Under the pieces are notes generated by a model. The model saw only the letters and a list, made by a program, of their open reading frames with translations, ran no database searches and was not told where the DNA came from. Below, one piece after another: positions 32,677 through 43,325 of a stretch of 64,000 bases of DNA. The stretch covers positions 1,674,001 through 1,738,000 of the forward strand of contig NZ_CP154879.1 of assembly GCF_039614765.1 (NCBI RefSeq). Reading direction: 5' to 3'. The position numbers were made by a program, and so were the translations under genes. The stretch is from Castellaniella sp. MT123. Lineage in GTDB: Bacteria; Pseudomonadota; Gammaproteobacteria; Burkholderiales; Burkholderiaceae_B. Numbering within the stretch: position 1 is the first letter of the stretch; every line of letters begins with the position of its first letter.

Positions 32677-34425
32677 TTACGACCGGCGACGCGGCGACAG
32701 CACGAAGGCATCCTCGCTGTCCACCGCCCGCTTCAGCTGCGAATAGCGTTCCAGCAGATCCGATTTATAGACCACCCCCAGCAGGCGGGCCGGCTGGTCG
32801 CGGCTGATCACCGGCAGACGCTCGCCCTGAAAGGCGCTGAACAGCGCCTGCGCCTCGTCCAGGCTGAGGTCCGGATAGAGCGGCTTGACGAAATCCAGCC
32901 GCAGGACCTCACCACAGGTCTTGGACCCGACGTCGATCTCCCCCAGCATCATGCGCGTCAGATCCTGCTGGGCGATCACCCCCTGCCAGCCGCCTTCGGC
33001 ATCGACGACGTACAGGTATTTGACCGGATAATCCAGGAACATTTCCTGTGCCTGGCGCACGGGCGCATCGGTGCGCACCACCGTTTCCGCGGGACGCAAC
33101 AGGCTGTCCAGACGTGCCTCGCGCAGGCGCTGTCGCAGCGCCTGGTTATCCTCGTGGTGCAGGGTGACTTCATACATCACGGCCTGGGCCAACCCGCGCG
33201 AGACGTAATACGCCACCACGCAGGCCAGCACCAGCGGCAGCACCATCTGATAGCTGAGCGTCATCTCGAAAATCATCAAGATCGCCATGAAGGGCGCGCT
33301 GGTGGCAGCCGCCAGGAACGCCCCCATGCCGACCAGGGCGAACACGGCGCCATGCCCCGCCAACGCCGGCCAGGCATCGCCCAGCAACTGGCCAAACAGC
33401 ACCCCCAGGGCGCCGCCCACGAACAGCATCGGCGTGAACACCCCGCCCACCGCCCCGGAACCGGCCGTCAGCGCCGTGGCGAGGACCTTGCACAGCAGCA
33501 TCAGCAGCACTGTCTGCCAGGCCCAGTCGTCATGCAGCAGCGACAACACCACCCGATTGCCGTTACCCGCCATCTCGGGCAACTGGGTCAGCAATGCCCC
33601 CAGCAGCAGCCCCCCGAGTGCCAGCTGCAGCGGCAGCCAAAGGCCTGTGCGGCCGAACAGTGTTTTGACGCCATGAATCGCACGCAGGAACTGCGCCGCC
33701 CCGACGCCCGCCAGGACACCCAGGGCCAGGCAAGGCAGCAGCAGGTCGGCGGGCGCAGCCGCCAGATCCGGCAAGGGATAGCGGGCCTCGTAGTGTCCGG
33801 TCAGGTGCATGACCAGGCTGGAGACGGCCGCGGCCACCAGCAGAGGCCCGAAATTCTGGAAGGACATGGATCCCAGGATGATCTCGCCGACGAACACAGC
33901 CCCCGCCAGCGGCGCCCCGTAGGCCGCCGACACCCCGGCTGCCGCGCCACAGGCCGCCAGCAGCCGCAGATGCGCCGTATCGACCTTCAGAAACCGCCCC
34001 AGACCCGATGCCCACAAGGCGGCCAGATGCACCATGGCGCCCTCTCGGCCGATCGATCCGCCGCTGGCCACTGTGCACAACGAAGACAGAGATCGCAGGA
34101 GCCCCTGCCCGATGGACATGCGACCATCACCGATGGCCACCGCCTCCATGTAGCCGGAATGCGCGTCGCGCGACACGCGCCGCGCCGCCACCAGCAAAAT
34201 GCCCGCGCACAGACCGCCGATCGCCGGCACCAGCACGCGCAAGGTCCAGGGGAGACCGCCCATCACTTGCGTGATCAGACCGGGATGATCGGAAAAAAGG
34301 CGCTGGATCGCATGAATGCCCGCATGAAAGGCGATCGTCACCACCGCCCCACCCAGGCCGGCGAACGCCGCCCAGAAGAGCATGGCGATCACCCCGTCGG
34401 CCCTCAGGCGCGGATACCGTCCCAT
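32677..34425 (-). CDS. ClC-family chloride channel or H+/Cl- exchanger with CBS domains
   Basis: This membrane protein moves chloride across the inner membrane. GSIGREGAMVH near residues 123-133 contains the gating glutamate (E128) of the GREGP motif, here with Ala for Pro; YGAPLAGAVFVGEI and GAVGGVFTPMLFVGG are further ClC signatures. The C-terminal part (about 445-580) holds two CBS domains, which in other proteins sense adenosine nucleotides. The 582-residue gene starts 9 bases after the CydB-like gene, suggesting one operon and a shared function. Confidence 0.92.
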   Translation of the reverse strand: MGRYPRLRADGVIAMLFWAAFAGLGGAVVTIAFHAGIHAIQRLFSDHPGLITQVMGGLPWTLRVLVPAIGGLCAGILLVAARRVSRDAHSGYMEAVAIGDGRMSIGQGLLRSLSSLCTVASGGSIGREGAMVHLAALWASGLGRFLKVDTAHLRLLAACGAAAGVSAAYGAPLAGAVFVGEIILGSMSFQNFGPLLVAAAVSSLVMHLTGHYEARYPLPDLAAAPADLLLPCLALGVLAGVGAAQFLRAIHGVKTLFGRTGLWLPLQLALGGLLLGALLTQLPEMAGNGNRVVLSLLHDDWAWQTVLLMLLCKVLATALTAGSGAVGGVFTPMLFVGGALGVLFGQLLGDAWPALAGHGAVFALVGMGAFLAAATSAPFMAILMIFEMTLSYQMVLPLVLACVVAYYVSRGLAQAVMYEVTLHHEDNQALRQRLREARLDSLLRPAETVVRTDAPVRQAQEMFLDYPVKYLYVVDAEGGWQGVIAQQDLTRMMLGEIDVGSKTCGEVLRLDFVKPLYPDLSLDEAQALFSAFQGERLPVISRDQPARLLGVVYKSDLLERYSQLKRAVDSEDAFVLSPRRRS

Positions 34426-34434
34426 GATCAGGTC

Positions 34435-35484
34435 CTAGCCCCGGAAACGCGGCGGGCTGGGCGGACGCGACCGGCCCAGCATGCGCCAGTACACCCACAG
34501 GTTGAAGATGATCGCCACCGGAAACGCCACCACCGTGGCCGACAACGCCAGACGCAATGTCGCCACCGGCGCTGCCGCATCCCACAGGGTGACTTCGTCG
34601 AGCACCAGATAAGGGAAGAAACTGTAGGCCAGCCCGCCCAGCAGGAGCAGCAGGATCACCAGCACCAGCGCATACGGCAAGGCCGAGGCCCGGTAGCTGT
34701 GGGCGATCATGCGCTGCAGCGTCATTTCAGTGAGCACGAAACACAGCAGCAGCAGGCCCCAGACCATCCCGACCGCCAGCCAGTGGCGACCATCCCCCCA
34801 CTTCAGGAAGACACCAGCATTGGAAAAATCCAATACCACCGAAACACCCACCGCGCCCACCGCGCTCCAGCGCAGCGTGCGCCGCGCCCAGCCGACCGCC
34901 CGGACGCGAAGTTCGCCCGCCTCGCGCATCATCAGCCAGGCCGCACCCAGCAGGCTGTAGACCGCCACGGCGCATACCCCCATCAGGGTCGCAAAACCCA
35001 CATAACCGGCACCTGCCTGGTAGGCGACCGCCACCTGGGCCAGGAGGTACCCATGGGAAAATGCCACCAGGACGGCACCCGCGCCAAAACCGAACAGCCA
35101 GCGCCCCTGTTGTTCCGCCGGGGCACGCAGGCGCCACTCGAAGCAGACCGATCGCAACAACGTCCCCAGCCCCAGCAGGGACAGGGGCACGTACAGACGC
35201 CCCAGGGTCTGAGACCAGGCATAGGGAAACGCCACCGCAAACAGCCCCACGCCCAGGAACAACCAGAATTCGTTCGCATCGCGCCACGGGCTGAGCAGCG
35301 ACAGCATGCGCGGCCGCAACGCCGGCGGTGCCACCAGGGACACGCACCCCACGCCGATATCGAAGCCGTCGAGCAGCACCCCCGCGACCAGGATCGAGAA
35401 AAACACCAGCATCAGCGCCAGAGGCATCCAGAATGCGGGATCCTGCGCCCCCAGACCCAGCAGGGCCGCCAGCGAATCGATCAT
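34435..35484 (-). CDS. Cytochrome bd-like subunit II (CydB homologue)
   Basis: A membrane protein of 349 residues. VLLDGFDIGVGCVSL near residues 41-55, SPWRDANEFWLFLG and LLRSVCFEWRL correspond to conserved blocks of CydB (E. coli DGFDMGVG, WDGNQVW and FFRPVGFDYR). ATG 35484 overlaps the stop of the CydA-like gene as ATGA. The open frame to 35811 is a shadow of that gene. It should pair with the CydA-like subunit, whose heme ligands are missing, so oxidase activity is doubtful. Confidence 0.88.
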   Translation of the reverse strand: MIDSLAALLGLGAQDPAFWMPLALMLVFFSILVAGVLLDGFDIGVGCVSLVAPPALRPRMLSLLSPWRDANEFWLFLGVGLFAVAFPYAWSQTLGRLYVPLSLLGLGTLLRSVCFEWRLRAPAEQQGRWLFGFGAGAVLVAFSHGYLLAQVAVAYQAGAGYVGFATLMGVCAVAVYSLLGAAWLMMREAGELRVRAVGWARRTLRWSAVGAVGVSVVLDFSNAGVFLKWGDGRHWLAVGMVWGLLLLCFVLTEMTLQRMIAHSYRASALPYALVLVILLLLLGGLAYSFFPYLVLDEVTLWDAAAPVATLRLALSATVVAFPVAIIFNLWVYWRMLGRSRPPSPPRFRG

Positions 35485-36893
35485 GCCCGTCCCCGGTAGC
35501 GCGCCACGGGGACGACCCCATAGCGCATCGTGTGCCCCAGCAATTGGCGAAAGCCCAGCACCAGGGCGCCATACACCAGCACCTGTAGCCCCAGGACCAG
35601 CCACAGCCCGCCCTCGCCCTGAACCGTGCCGATCTCGCGCAACGTGACGGTTCCGTAGATCGCGTAGGGCAGGCTGCCGACCAGCAGATGCCCCCAGCCG
35701 ACCCCCTGCAGGATCAGGGCCAACCAGGCCGTGACCCGCAGGCCGATGCGCCCGGCCGGCGTCAGACTGTCGGGCTCGAACCCCAGCCGGCGCCCGGTCC
35801 ACAGCGCCCACACCGCCATCAGCCCCAGCAGCCCAGTCAGCAGAACGGCCAGGCGCGACGAGGCATAGGTCAGCCAGACAGGCGGACGCATGCCGATCAG
35901 GTCATTGAGCCCCTGAATTTCCGGGACGGCAGGGGGATTTTCGGCCGGTGATTTCGGCGCATCAGCGGCGGTTTCCTTCGGCCCGGAACGCGGCGCGCCA
36001 TCCAGTGCCGGTTTCGGCGGCAGCCAGTCTGGCGGGATACTGGGCCCCGGCAGCGCCCAGGTGTTGCGTCCGCCAGCCACATCCAGCCAGGCAAGCAGGG
36101 ATGCGTGTTCGGCCGGCCCGGTGACCCATTGCGGAATGACCGCCGCCGCCCGGGCCGGCTGCACGGGCAGCAGCTGGCGCCCCAGCCCGGCGACCAGCAC
36201 CGCCTGCGCCACCACTGCCACCAGCAACAACCATGCCCCGCCGGCGAAGACCGATCGGTCCCCCGCGTCGCTGGGCCGGGCTCGCGTACGCTGGGCCGTG
36301 AGCGACAGCATCAGGGTCGCAGCGAGGATGAGCGCGCCGCTGGCCAGCACCCCGAACAGCGCGGGGGCCGCGCCACCCAGCAGGGCGAACCAATCCTGGA
36401 TCTGGTAATGATTTTCCACCAGTCTCGCGCCAACCGGCCACTGCAGCCAGGCCAGCAGCACCACGACCCACCAGGCGGTCAGCGATGTCCCCAACGCCAC
36501 CATCCCGACCACCGCCGTGTGCGCCGATTCGGAAAGCCAGCGCTGACCATACAGCATGGCGCCCAGGAAACAGGATTTGAAGATAAAGGCGGTCAGGATG
36601 GCCATGCCCAGCAACGGCCCCGCGACCTCGCCCGCCCGATCCATGAAATCGGGCCAGAGCGTACCCAGTTGGAAGAGCAGCGGCAGACTGGCGGCAAAGC
36701 CGACGATCAGTGCCAGCGCATACACACGCACCCAGAAACGGTAGGCGAGCAGCGCCGCCGCGCCCCGGCGCGCACGCAGGCGCAGGACGAACAATACCCA
36801 GGCCAGCCCGAGTTCCAGCGCCAGAAAAAGCAGCATGAAACCCAGGCTGAGATAGAACTGGGTCAGCGACAGAACCCATGCGGTTTGAGTCAT
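35481..36893 (-). CDS. Cytochrome bd-like subunit I (CydA homologue) lacking canonical heme ligands
   Basis: It is recognisably CydA: LSLTQFYLSLGFMLLF matches E. coli CydA LSRLQFALTAMYHFLF, and VALGTSLTAWW matches VALGSNLSALW. Aligned by eye and numbered from ATG 36893 (470 residues), H19 is M20, E99 is A98, E107 is K106, H186 is about G181, M393 is A349 and E445 is L404. GRQPW is replaced by GSLPY. These are the known ligands of hemes b558, b595 and d and the proton-path acids. A Pro/Lys-rich loop lies at about residues 282-325. ATG 36917 is possible, but a -10-like TACAAT at 36926-36921 favours 36893. It is probably a quinone- or ion-linked homologue of unknown function. Confidence 0.85.
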   Translation of the reverse strand: MTQTAWVLSLTQFYLSLGFMLLFLALELGLAWVLFVLRLRARRGAAALLAYRFWVRVYALALIVGFAASLPLLFQLGTLWPDFMDRAGEVAGPLLGMAILTAFIFKSCFLGAMLYGQRWLSESAHTAVVGMVALGTSLTAWWVVVLLAWLQWPVGARLVENHYQIQDWFALLGGAAPALFGVLASGALILAATLMLSLTAQRTRARPSDAGDRSVFAGGAWLLLVAVVAQAVLVAGLGRQLLPVQPARAAAVIPQWVTGPAEHASLLAWLDVAGGRNTWALPGPSIPPDWLPPKPALDGAPRSGPKETAADAPKSPAENPPAVPEIQGLNDLIGMRPPVWLTYASSRLAVLLTGLLGLMAVWALWTGRRLGFEPDSLTPAGRIGLRVTAWLALILQGVGWGHLLVGSLPYAIYGTVTLREIGTVQGEGGLWLVLGLQVLVYGALVLGFRQLLGHTMRYGVVPVARYRGRA

Positions 36894-36925: not shown

Positions 36926-38677
36926 ATGACCACCGACTCCGCGCCCGTTTCGAATTTCCTGCGCACCATCATCGACAACGATCTGAAATCGGGTCGCTAC
37001 CAGGGCCGGCAGTGGGCGCCCCCGCCCAGCCCGGCGGCGGTCCGCCGCGCCGGCGCGATCGACCCCGCCCGCATCCGCACCCGTTTTCCGCCCGAACCCA
37101 ACGGCTATCTGCACATTGGCCACGCCAAGAGCATCTGTCTGAATTTCGGCCTGGCGCGCGACTACCAGGGCATCTGCCATCTGCGCTTCGACGATACCAA
37201 CCCCGAAAAGGAAGAAGACGAATACGTCCACGCCATCATCGACATGGTCCACTGGCTGGGCTTCGACTGGGTTCAGGACGGTACGGAACACTGCTATTTC
37301 GCCAGCGACTATTTCGACACGCTGTACCAGTTCGCCGAAGCCCTCGTGCAGGCGGGCCACGCCTATGTCGACGAGCAATCGGCCGACGAGATGCGCGCGA
37401 CACGCGGCACGCTGACCGAAGCCGGTACGAATTCACCCTGGCGCGACCGCCCAGCCACCGAATCGCTGACGCTGCTGCGCGAGATGCGGGCAGGCAAACA
37501 CCCCGACGGCAGCATGGCCCTGCGGGCCCGCATCGACATGGCCTCGCCCAATATCAACTTGCGTGATCCAGTGCTGTACCGCATCCGCCACGCCAGCCAT
37601 CACCGCACGGGAAATGACTGGTGCATCTATCCGATGTATGCCTGGGCGCATCCGGTCGAAGACGCCCTGGAAGGCATCACGCACAGCATCTGCACGCTCG
37701 AATTCGAGGACCAGCGCCCTTTCTACGACTGGATCCTGGAACACCTGGCCGAACTCGACCAGTTGGCCGCACCGCTGCCGCGCCAGTATGAATTCGCGCG
37801 CCTGAACCTCAGCTACGTGGTCACCAGCAAACGCAAATTACGCCAGCTGGTCACCGAAGGCCACGTGAACGGCTGGGACGACCCCCGGCTGCCCACCTTG
37901 GCGGGTCTGCGCCGCCGGGGCTATACGCCGGGCGCCATCCGCCTGTTCTGCGAACGGCTGGGTGTGTCAAAGGCCGATTCCCGCATCGACTACAGCGTGC
38001 TGGAACAGGCGCTGCGCGACGATCTGGACCCGGTCGCGGCCCGCACGGTCGCGGTCCTGGATCCGGTCAAACTCGTCCTGACGAACTTCCCGGCGGACCA
38101 TGCCGAACCTTGCTCGGCTCCGCTCAACCCCCACGATCCCGACGGCGCCCGGCGCAAATTCCCCTTGACGCGCGAACTCTGGATCGAACGCGACGACTTC
38201 CGCGAAGAACCGCCGAAGAAATACTTCCGTCTGTTCCCCGGCAATCTGGTGCGCCTGAAATACGGCTACGTCGTGCGCTGCACCGGCTGCGTCAAAAACG
38301 ACCAAGGCGAAGTCACCGAAGTTCATGCCGAATACCTGCCCGACACCCGCAGCGGCACACCCGGCGCCGACGCCATCAAGGTCAAGGGCGCCATCACCTG
38401 GGTCAGCGCGGCACACGCGATCGCGGCCGAGGTCCGGCTCTACGACCGGCTGTTTCGCGACGCACACCCCGACCGCGGCGACCAGGATTTCCTGCAGGCC
38501 ATCAATCCGGATTCCTGCCACGTGACGCAGGCCTGGCTGGAACCCGGCACCCAGGCTGAACCTGGCACGACCTGGCAATTCGAACGCCTCGGCTATTTCG
38601 TCGCCGACCGCGAAGAATCCACCACCAGCCATCCGGTGATCAACCGCGCCGTCACACTGCGCGACACCTGGGCCTGA
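36926..38677 (+). CDS. glnS: Glutaminyl-tRNA synthetase
   Basis: It charges tRNA-Gln. RFPPEPNGYLHIGHAKSI carries the HIGH motif at residues 63-66; the KMSKS-like motif is VTSKRKL. The beta-barrel anticodon-binding domain occupies the C-terminal third. It has 583 residues against 554 in E. coli, with a longer N-terminal linker at about residues 22-50. minC follows after 8 bases. Confidence 0.97.
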   Translation: MTTDSAPVSNFLRTIIDNDLKSGRYQGRQWAPPPSPAAVRRAGAIDPARIRTRFPPEPNGYLHIGHAKSICLNFGLARDYQGICHLRFDDTNPEKEEDEYVHAIIDMVHWLGFDWVQDGTEHCYFASDYFDTLYQFAEALVQAGHAYVDEQSADEMRATRGTLTEAGTNSPWRDRPATESLTLLREMRAGKHPDGSMALRARIDMASPNINLRDPVLYRIRHASHHRTGNDWCIYPMYAWAHPVEDALEGITHSICTLEFEDQRPFYDWILEHLAELDQLAAPLPRQYEFARLNLSYVVTSKRKLRQLVTEGHVNGWDDPRLPTLAGLRRRGYTPGAIRLFCERLGVSKADSRIDYSVLEQALRDDLDPVAARTVAVLDPVKLVLTNFPADHAEPCSAPLNPHDPDGARRKFPLTRELWIERDDFREEPPKKYFRLFPGNLVRLKYGYVVRCTGCVKNDQGEVTEVHAEYLPDTRSGTPGADAIKVKGAITWVSAAHAIAAEVRLYDRLFRDAHPDRGDQDFLQAINPDSCHVTQAWLEPGTQAEPGTTWQFERLGYFVADREESTTSHPVINRAVTLRDTWA

Positions 38678-41686: not shown

Positions 41687-42628
41687 TTACAGCGAATCAC
41701 CAGCCCCCACTCGATCGACGATCAACTGGTAGTGCTCCGGCCGTCGATGCCGATCAAAATCGAATATGTTCTTCCTGAAGTTCTCACCCATGGTCAGATC
41801 GATCGACGCCGTGATGACCTCATCGTCCTCCGTTGCTGCCTGGGCAACGATTTCACCTGCGGGAGAGACGATGACGGACCCACCAATCAGATGAAAGCCA
41901 TCCTCATAACCAGTCTTGCCCGCGGCAGCGGCCCAGACGCAATTCTGATAGGCGCCCGACTGCATGGACAGCAGGTGGGACTGCATGCGCAGATGCACGG
42001 GTTCATGCCAGTGAATGTTGTGCGCCGGGGTGTTGTAGCCCAGAACGACCAGCTCGGCGCTCTGCAGCCCCATCACGCGCCAGGTCTCGGGCCAGCGACG
42101 GTCATTGCACAGACACATCCCGGTACGGACACCATCCAGGTTCCACACGCGCCAGGTTTCTTCGCCCACGTCGAAGTATTTTTTCTCGAGATGCTGAAAG
42201 GGCGCTTCAGGCTTGTAATCCACATGACCAGGCAGGTGAATCTTGCGGTATTTACCCACGATGCTGCCCGATTTATCCACCAGGATGGACGTATTGAAGC
42301 GCCTTCCTTCGGGGGTCAGTTCGGCATACCCCAGATAAAACCCGATTCCCAATCGCTTCGCATCATCAAACAGAGGCTGCACTACCGCATTGGGCATGCT
42401 TTTCTCGAAATAGCGAGCCTCCACTTCCTCTATCGGATTCCAATAGCGCGGGAAAAACGTGGTCAAGGTCAATTCCGGGAATACCACGAAATCAGACTTT
42501 CGCGCGTGCGCTTCGCGCAGCATTTCCAATAATCGCTTGACGACGCTTTCCCTACTATCGGCCAGATCGATCCCTCCCACCTGGGCGACAGCCAGACCAA
42601 ATTTACGGGAGAAATTCCGTGTATGCAT
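41687..42628 (-). CDS. N-carbamoyl-D-amino-acid hydrolase
   Basis: A nitrilase-superfamily amidase that releases D-amino acids, ammonia and CO2 from N-carbamoyl-D-amino acids, the final step of D-hydantoin breakdown. The Glu-Lys-Cys triad is visible: E52 in VVFPELTL, K129 in GKYRKIHLPGH and C174 in CLCNDRRWPE. The last motif is characteristic of D-carbamoylases. ATG 42628 (MHTRNFSRKFGLAVAQ) gives 313 residues; the open frame to 42853 overlaps the racemase gene. Hydantoin racemase and hydantoinase genes in the same cluster support the assignment. Confidence 0.9.
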   Translation of the reverse strand: MHTRNFSRKFGLAVAQVGGIDLADSRESVVKRLLEMLREAHARKSDFVVFPELTLTTFFPRYWNPIEEVEARYFEKSMPNAVVQPLFDDAKRLGIGFYLGYAELTPEGRRFNTSILVDKSGSIVGKYRKIHLPGHVDYKPEAPFQHLEKKYFDVGEETWRVWNLDGVRTGMCLCNDRRWPETWRVMGLQSAELVVLGYNTPAHNIHWHEPVHLRMQSHLLSMQSGAYQNCVWAAAAGKTGYEDGFHLIGGSVIVSPAGEIVAQAATEDDEVITASIDLTMGENFRKNIFDFDRHRRPEHYQLIVDRVGAGDSL

Positions 42629-42653
42629 ACTTGCTCCTGATTCAAGAATCGAT

Positions 42654-43325
42654 TCAGCCCGCGTCCAGCACGCGGCCCAATGCCATGGCGACCGCAGCCA
42701 TGGTGGGGTCGACAACGGGTACGGCCAACTGGTCTTCCAGCCAGGCCCGATACTGCGGCATGCCCGCGCATCCCAGTACCAGAACCTCCGATCCATACTC
42801 ATCGCGCAACCGCCTTCCGACCTCCAGAAGACGCGCGCGAGTCGTCCCTTCATCCTGCAGTTCAGCCACGCCCAAGCTCAGTGGCAGTTCACCAGCGATG
42901 CGCGACGCAATTCCTGCAGCGGCATAGGCACGCGCATGCCGATTCATCAGCGTTTTCAGGATCGCGATGACCCCAACACGCTGCCCCAGACTCATGGCAG
43001 TCAGCAGACCGCACTCCTGGATACCCAACACAGGCTTACGGGTCTGGTCACGTGCAAGGTAGAGCCCAGGGTCACTGAAGCAAGCAATCACGTATGCACC
43101 GACCTGATCCCCCCGCGTCTGCTCGAGATCGGCAACCAACCTGCCGACGAGCAACGCTGCGGATTCAACATGCTGCTCCGTCTGGATGCCAGGGGGCCCA
43201 TCACGCAGCGTCATACACTCGATCCGAGGCCCGGCATTCCATTCGAAAGGCGCCAGGCTGGCTTTCAAGCCTCGTGTAACCTCGACCAGACAGTTCGGAT
43301 TGATGACGTATATAGTCTTGTCCAT
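42654..43325 (-). CDS. hyuE: Hydantoin racemase (Asp/Glu racemase family)
   Basis: It racemises 5-substituted hydantoins so that both enantiomers can be consumed. The two catalytic cysteines are C82 in IACFSDPGL and C186 in LGCAGMP, spaced as in hydantoin racemases. Length is 223 residues. The carbamoylase gene follows after 25 bases, and the LysR gene diverges 104 bases upstream. Confidence 0.87.
   Translation of the reverse strand: MDKTIYVINPNCLVEVTRGLKASLAPFEWNAGPRIECMTLRDGPPGIQTEQHVESAALLVGRLVADLEQTRGDQVGAYVIACFSDPGLYLARDQTRKPVLGIQECGLLTAMSLGQRVGVIAILKTLMNRHARAYAAAGIASRIAGELPLSLGVAELQDEGTTRARLLEVGRRLRDEYGSEVLVLGCAGMPQYRAWLEDQLAVPVVDPTMAAVAMALGRVLDAG

Follow-up and report, generated by a model that had tools for sequence, protein, structure and literature searches.

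What remains of a cytochrome bd oxidase once the residues that hold its hemes are gone? The question is raised by a gene pair, here called cydA' and cydB', in a 64,000-nucleotide stretch of Castellaniella sp. MT123 (NZ_CP154879.1, positions 1,674,001 to 1,738,000), which as a whole is referred to as the window; the genome it comes from (G000) is 3.37 Mb in one contig. The two genes encode homologues of the cytochrome bd subunits CydA and CydB, and the data indicate that their product, CydA'B', arose from a short-Q-loop (CIO-like) cytochrome bd and now probably forms a membrane complex that neither holds heme nor acts as an oxidase. A preliminary description of the window had recorded ligand loss in the single protein. 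Here, the loss is found to be family-wide, to go together with replacement of E107 of CydA by Lys or Arg and of Trp57 of CydB by Arg, and probably to extend to the published Bordetella cydAB3.

A CydA-CydB pair without heme ligands

The genes lie in the order cydA' then cydB' and share four bases (ATGA):

35481..36893, minus strand: cydA', ligandless CydA homologue of 470 aa with an ATG start (translation, Pfam, alignment)
34435..35484, minus strand: cydB', CydB homologue of 349 aa, ATGA overlap with cydA' (Pfam, reading frames)

Translation of the window gives a cydA' frame without internal stop, and an upstream in-frame GTG is an alternative start that would give 478 aa. CydA' matches the Pfam family Cyt_bd_oxida_I (PF01654) with an E value of 1.6e-69 and CydB' matches PF02322 with 6.3e-48 (the query for the latter started 27 bases 5' of the cydB' ATG), both above the curated cut-offs. 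CydA homology over the full protein length, as had been proposed, is borne out, and so is an intact frame in an operon with a CydB that retains its conserved blocks.

Residues were numbered by reference to E. coli CydA from NC_000913. Two of its heme ligands, H19 and E445, we take to be those of the b595/d site; heme b558 is held by H186 and M393, as stated in PMC5322542. The corresponding places in the window are as follows:

36834..36836, minus strand: M20 codon at the place of heme ligand H19 (alignment to E. coli CydA)
36348..36350, minus strand: V182 codon, where E. coli has the heme b558 ligand H186 (alignment to E. coli CydA)
35847..35849, minus strand: A349 codon, where E. coli has the heme b558 ligand M393 (alignment to E. 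coli CydA)
35682..35684, minus strand: L404 codon at the place of heme ligand E445 (alignment to E. coli CydA)
36576..36578, minus strand: K106 codon of CydA' at the place of proton donor E107; Lys or Arg in 156/156 genomes (alignment)
35281..35283, minus strand: R68 codon of CydB', where E. coli CydB has W57; Arg in 155/155 readable genomes (alignment)
35278..35280, minus strand: D69 codon of CydB', equivalent to the proton-channel residue D58 of E. coli CydB; Asp in 149/151 readable genomes and 2/4 short members (alignment)
36141..36161, minus strand: Q-loop motif QPARAAA, retained (Q249 and K252 are Q245 and R248 in CydA'; E257 lost)

The Met, Ala and Leu previously assigned to H19, M393 and E445 stand, whereas the Gly given for H186 was one residue off; that place is V182, and there is no His whatsoever within residues 174-190. 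Alignment to E. coli CydA also agrees with the earlier reading of the proton-path glutamates (E99 is A98 and E107 is K106) and of GRQPW, which is GSLPY, and the E257 place is I253. Ligands at the usual sites, which an independent profile alignment to solved bd structures could have revealed, were not seen at H19, M393 or E445 when a 33-row family profile was used; non-ligand residues were placed there and at E107. The same loss is common to all seven aligned rows, namely the window gene and six named Castellaniella loci with orthologues at 68-97% identity.

CydA' was modelled with AlphaFold2 at modest confidence (mean predicted local distance difference test score, pLDDT, 64.1), and the ten best PDB matches of the model by Foldseek are all CydA chains of bd oxidases. 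Among the features of the bd oxidase class, the CydA fold and sequence family and the CydB partner are thus present, and H186/M393, H19/E445 and E99/E107 are absent. Because these defining features are missing, CydA'B' is classed not with the oxidases but as a branch of the known superfamily that is free of heme; as judged from its residues, it would be unable to hold b558, b595 and d normally or to reduce oxygen.

The Q-loop region of CydA' also contains a proline- and alanine-rich stretch (about residues 285-330, window 35900-36040). This stretch is long in the window and in two other loci (L004, L008) and is missing from the other aligned Castellaniella loci.

Distribution of the pair

Searches covered 268 genomes of the window's GTDB-type family, 138 of which gave a match of at least 435 bits (hand count). 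The residue table holds all 138 together with 14 lower-scoring genomes, 152 in total, and four more with a short CydA' bring the number to 156, so that the pair is present in at least 156/268 family genomes from 33 genus codes (G406, in two fragments, and two partial loci, L126 and L136, were left out of the counts). The locus is marked by the gene that diverges from cydA':

36926..38677, plus strand: glnS, divergent neighbour, marking the locus in 43/44 loci (locus comparison)

The sole exception among the 44 loci, a count from which L092 and L102 were excluded, stops at a contig edge. Meanwhile, 22 further family matches with 4/4 ligands have no glnS on the stretch examined, and the window genome itself holds a second, separate CydA with 4/4 ligands (L001). 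The pair is missing from G316, G386 and G413; the first of these, of the window's genus code, is 92% complete in 340 contigs.

Beyond the family, 36 distinct loci were read (27 and 9 new) and each has 4/4 ligands; in the searches that gave this gap family rows scored at least 577 bits against at most 430 outside. Since weaker outside matches were not individually read and some ligandless family members fall below 360 bits (L111, L118, L129), rare ligandless members may exist beyond the family. A plasmid search returned only matches below 60% identity.

Several loci depart from the usual form. In L240-L244 (genus codes g110 and g112) CydA' is cut to 378-402 aa and has no Q-loop, is still beside glnS and has K/R107; the cydB' of one of these genomes (G264, L243) is broken. 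In L136 and L248 (G263) a CydA in two frames with normal ligand residues lies away from glnS, next to a CydB that retains W57, and was not counted. Frames of 994-1101 aa from stop to stop (L071, L095, L096, L107) are provisionally taken as antisense extension into glnS and not as gene fusions.

Conserved replacements at the subunit interface

None of the four ligands is left in 133 of the 152 genomes, with one kept in 16, two in 2 and three in 1. H186 and E99 are each kept in 0/152, H19 is retained in 8, M393 in 11 and E445 in 4; with H186 gone throughout and the other three surviving in a few genomes, the loss was stepwise. The E107 place, by comparison, has a new and constant occupant: it is Lys in 150 and Arg in 2 of the 152 genomes and Lys or Arg in the four further short CydA', and E107 itself is found in 0/156. 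CydB W57 has become Arg in 151/151 readable and 4/4 short members and is Trp in 60/60 ligand-bearing relatives. Furthermore, the CydB D105 place is Glu in 152/152 genomes and the CydA K57 place is Arg in 51/51 rows.

PMC13189123 describes a proton channel at the subunit interface with CydA K53, K57 and E107 and CydB D105 and D58 along it. That text is silent on W57, the role of which is inferred here from its position next to D58. E257 and D239 are lost in most members, the short members have no Q-loop and D58 is not universal; the Lys/Arg interface is thus the sole feature kept wherever it can be read.

Purifying selection and a reversal of constraint

Ratios of nonsynonymous to synonymous substitution rates (dN/dS) were calculated by the Nei-Gojobori method with our own script. 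The median is 0.131 for cydA' and 0.063 for cydB' within genus code g5 (861 pairs, 42 genomes), and 0.053 and 0.013, respectively, within g111 (36 pairs). Both genes are under purifying selection, and together with the residue counts over 152 genomes this upholds the earlier suggestion that selection keeps the fold and not bd chemistry. CydB' is better conserved than CydA' in 1058/1275 pairs, the reverse of the ligand-bearing short-Q-loop relatives (81/1540), which suggests that the weight of function has shifted to CydB'. Mean CydA' identity is 46%, and the new residues are invariant in both subunits.

A single origin and the order of loss

A quick tree of 72 rows was built with the ligand columns omitted, after removal of duplicates and most g5 rows. 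The 51 ligandless rows form one clade (Shimodaira-Hasegawa-like approximate likelihood ratio test, SH-aLRT, 100) beside 21 ligand-bearing short-Q-loop rows; the sister row of the clade, L102, has 4/4 ligands, and FastTree concurs. The minimum number of changes on this tree is one each for E99, E107 and H186, all at the base, and three for H19, five for M393 and two for E445. One member, L093 (G365), has kept H19, M393, E445 and GRQPY, yet has CydA K107, no H186 and CydB R57. Its state indicates that the b558 ligand and proton chemistry were lost first, in both subunits, and that the remainder decayed in parallel. The tree and the constant locus show a single origin of CydA'B' from a short-Q-loop (CIO-like) cytochrome bd by common descent, with vertical upkeep at one chromosomal place.

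CydA'B' resembles CIO-type (short Q-loop) cytochrome bd in both subunits (PF01654, PF02322), in fold, in cydA-cydB order and through the sister row L102. It differs in the absence of H186, E99 and E107, with the other ligands mostly gone, in the change of CydB W57 to Arg and in the reversed conservation of the subunits. A second point of comparison is the OR-N type (CydAA'), which like CydA'B' diverges within the bd superfamily and has an incomplete quinol site; its members are described in PMC10839748 as putative cytochrome c-oxidising oxygen reductases built from two CydA-like proteins. The partner in CydA'B' is a CydB; the two are set apart here by the description of OR-N, the trees containing no OR-N or OR-C sequence. 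A literature search found no report of a ligandless CydA family, although most subscription papers and the bd superfamily survey were outside its reach and an earlier mention is therefore possible.

Probable identity of Bordetella cydAB3 with the CydA'B' pair

Four primers published for a risK deletion in B. pertussis (PMC5020355) all match L075, a locus of genome G281, without mismatch; two of them flank the risK end inside or beside cydB', and the outer downstream primer lies in cydB'. Across 42 loci, three of the primers match exactly only in L075 and the response-regulator primer is also exact in L085. A 36-base risA pattern was not diagnostic of G281, as G291, G293, G296 and G298 likewise matched with one mismatch. 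Judged by the published primers, G281 is a Bordetella pertussis-type genome.

G281 has two PF01654 matches, one canonical by score and the other a CydA' with 0/4 ligands. Its cydB' (L075 4838-5856) is split over two frames, with the interruption after about a quarter of its length, and intact copies are present in other genomes. According to PMC11257404, cydB3 is interrupted in 7/14 B. pertussis strains, and cydAB1 and cydAB3 are the only bd-type loci of B. pertussis. The start-to-start distance is 1337 in L075 versus 1338 implied by the cydAB3 deletion published there. The risK primers, the interrupted cydB', the count of two CydA genes and this distance lead us to infer that cydAB3 (BB4012-4011 of B. 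bronchiseptica RB50) is the CydA'B' pair. Both lie next to risK, have a broken cydB in B. pertussis and agree in gene length and in the number of CydA genes, and they differ in that cydAB3 is published, by homology, as a high-affinity bd oxidase (PMC11257404), whereas CydA' in G281 has 0/4 ligands. In the same paper, deletion of cydAB3 left growth at wild-type level, no single oxidase locus was needed in mice, the transcript was low and a strain with cyd3 as its only oxidase could not be constructed. These phenotypes fit a non-oxidase, and low expression explains them as well.

Genomic neighbourhood

Downstream of the pair in Castellaniella lies a further gene:

32677..34425, minus strand: clcB-like chloride channel gene, the next gene in 9/44 loci (locus comparison)

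As it adjoins cydB' in only those nine loci, clcB was rejected as a functional partner. In 24/44 loci (L070-L106) the kinase gene of an OmpR/EnvZ-like two-component system converges on cydB'. This system was also rejected as a partner, since some genomes have the pair and no such system and others have the system and no pair. A close response regulator (E 1e-70 or better) is absent from six genomes, five of the window's genus code and G323, and five of the six keep CydA'B'; conversely, the system remains beside glnS in G386 and G413, which have no pair. Nor is the convergent system RisAS, since a risA-type sequence lies elsewhere in those genomes and the primers indicate BP3222/risK. Further along the window (41687-43325, minus strand), two open reading frames that by eye presumably resemble a carbon-nitrogen hydrolase and an Asp/Glu racemase-type protein stand beside a LysR-like gene.

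Possible functions and alternative explanations

Because the heme-holding residues are lost and the pair is nevertheless kept at the same place in many relatives, CydA'B' probably does a different job in the membrane. One tentative proposal is that the interface channel, with its new charges, acts without redox chemistry on a proton, anion or other acidic solute, which it would conduct, gate or bind. The working part would then be the old proton channel between the two subunits, whose lining now comprises R52, R56 and K106 from CydA' and R68, D69 and E116 from CydB'; the space vacated by the hemes would either be taken up by side chains or serve as the pocket. It is possible, though far from assured, that the oxidase was converted once into a heme-free transporter or channel in which the buried Lys-Arg pair serves as an anion, acidic-solute or proton site, with the hemes then decaying in parallel lineages and CydB' under more constraint. 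The main alternative within a heme-free complex is that K106 with D69, together with R68, could merely seal a dead channel, with no transport, the complex being a scaffold.

Several observations weigh against the heme-free reading and the channel proposed within it. The L093 protein, with its three ligands and GRQPY, might bind one or two hemes; Q249 (134/152), K/R252 (144/152) and R391 (151/152) are retained and would fit a quinone site; and D69 is found in only half of the four short members. Furthermore, the CydB' model is unusable (pLDDT 44.5) and that of CydA' modest, and for this reason K106 is paired with R68 and D69 on the basis of the E. coli description. We know of no spectra, heme stain or structure for any CydA'B' member.

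Retention of a quinone site touches on the proposal, made in the preliminary description, of a quinone-linked ion translocator without hemes. The Q-loop motif and R391 are indeed present in most members. E257 and D239, however, have disappeared from the majority, there is no remaining redox centre to act as a driver, and the g110/g112 members have no Q-loop and still keep K/R107 and CydB R57, which makes a quinol link doubtful as the general function and the proposal as a whole unlikely. That CydA'B' is still a heme protein with other axial ligands has very little probability. The fold is retained, as the Foldseek matches show, C108 (142/152) and M113 (149/152) are conserved and L093 has three normal ligands, but the substitute ligands suggested earlier, M20 and H402, are poorly conserved (position 20 is Met in 48/152 and position 402 is His in 34/152) and the membrane part has gained no His column. 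The only family-wide His of the N-terminal membrane region, H125, is just as constant among true oxidases (56/56). H454, conserved in 97 of the 110 genomes that are not of genus code g5, belongs to the C-terminal tail in the model, and further losses are seen in the short members.

An accessory, assembly or regulatory role beside the true bd oxidase of the cell is very unlikely. It could draw on the dimerisation of E. coli bd (PMC13189123) and on the at least one additional PF01654 protein found in the window genome and in 33 of the 36 genomes searched. However, CydA' is the only PF01654 match in the other three (G312, G323 and G352; 99% complete, fragmented assemblies), which argues that a true bd oxidase is not needed, and in the window genome the pair is separate from the true cydAB. 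The convergent kinase gene would suit a quinone-binding sensor or input module of the two-component system, a highly improbable role given that the pair and the system occur without each other. A decaying relic without function is scarcely probable either: CydA' diverges fast, the forms of 378-402 aa are shortened, cydB' is broken in G281 and G264 and the pair is missing from three genomes, yet frames are open in 152/152 tabulated CydA', dN/dS is far below 1 and the new residues are invariant in both subunits despite the low CydA' identity. Alternative ligands, decay and sensor-kinase partnership are thus disfavoured, and the preferred reading is still that of a heme-free complex with a different function.

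Implications

Annotation calls the CydA'B' proteins cytochrome bd oxidase, and as a consequence Bordetella is credited with an extra high-affinity oxidase (PMC11257404 and PMC13367067). The K107/R57 signature provides a sequence test that separates CydA'B' from a true oxidase. If the complex has no heme, each oxidase count in the family is one too high, and what has passed for an enzyme is a widespread membrane complex with some other function. The intermediates with three, two, one and no ligands are an unusual record of a three-heme enzyme that lost its chemistry while the complex was kept. Should the transporter or channel reading be true, CydA'B' would bring to the cytochrome bd superfamily a function without redox chemistry, present across Castellaniella, Bordetella and many of their relatives.
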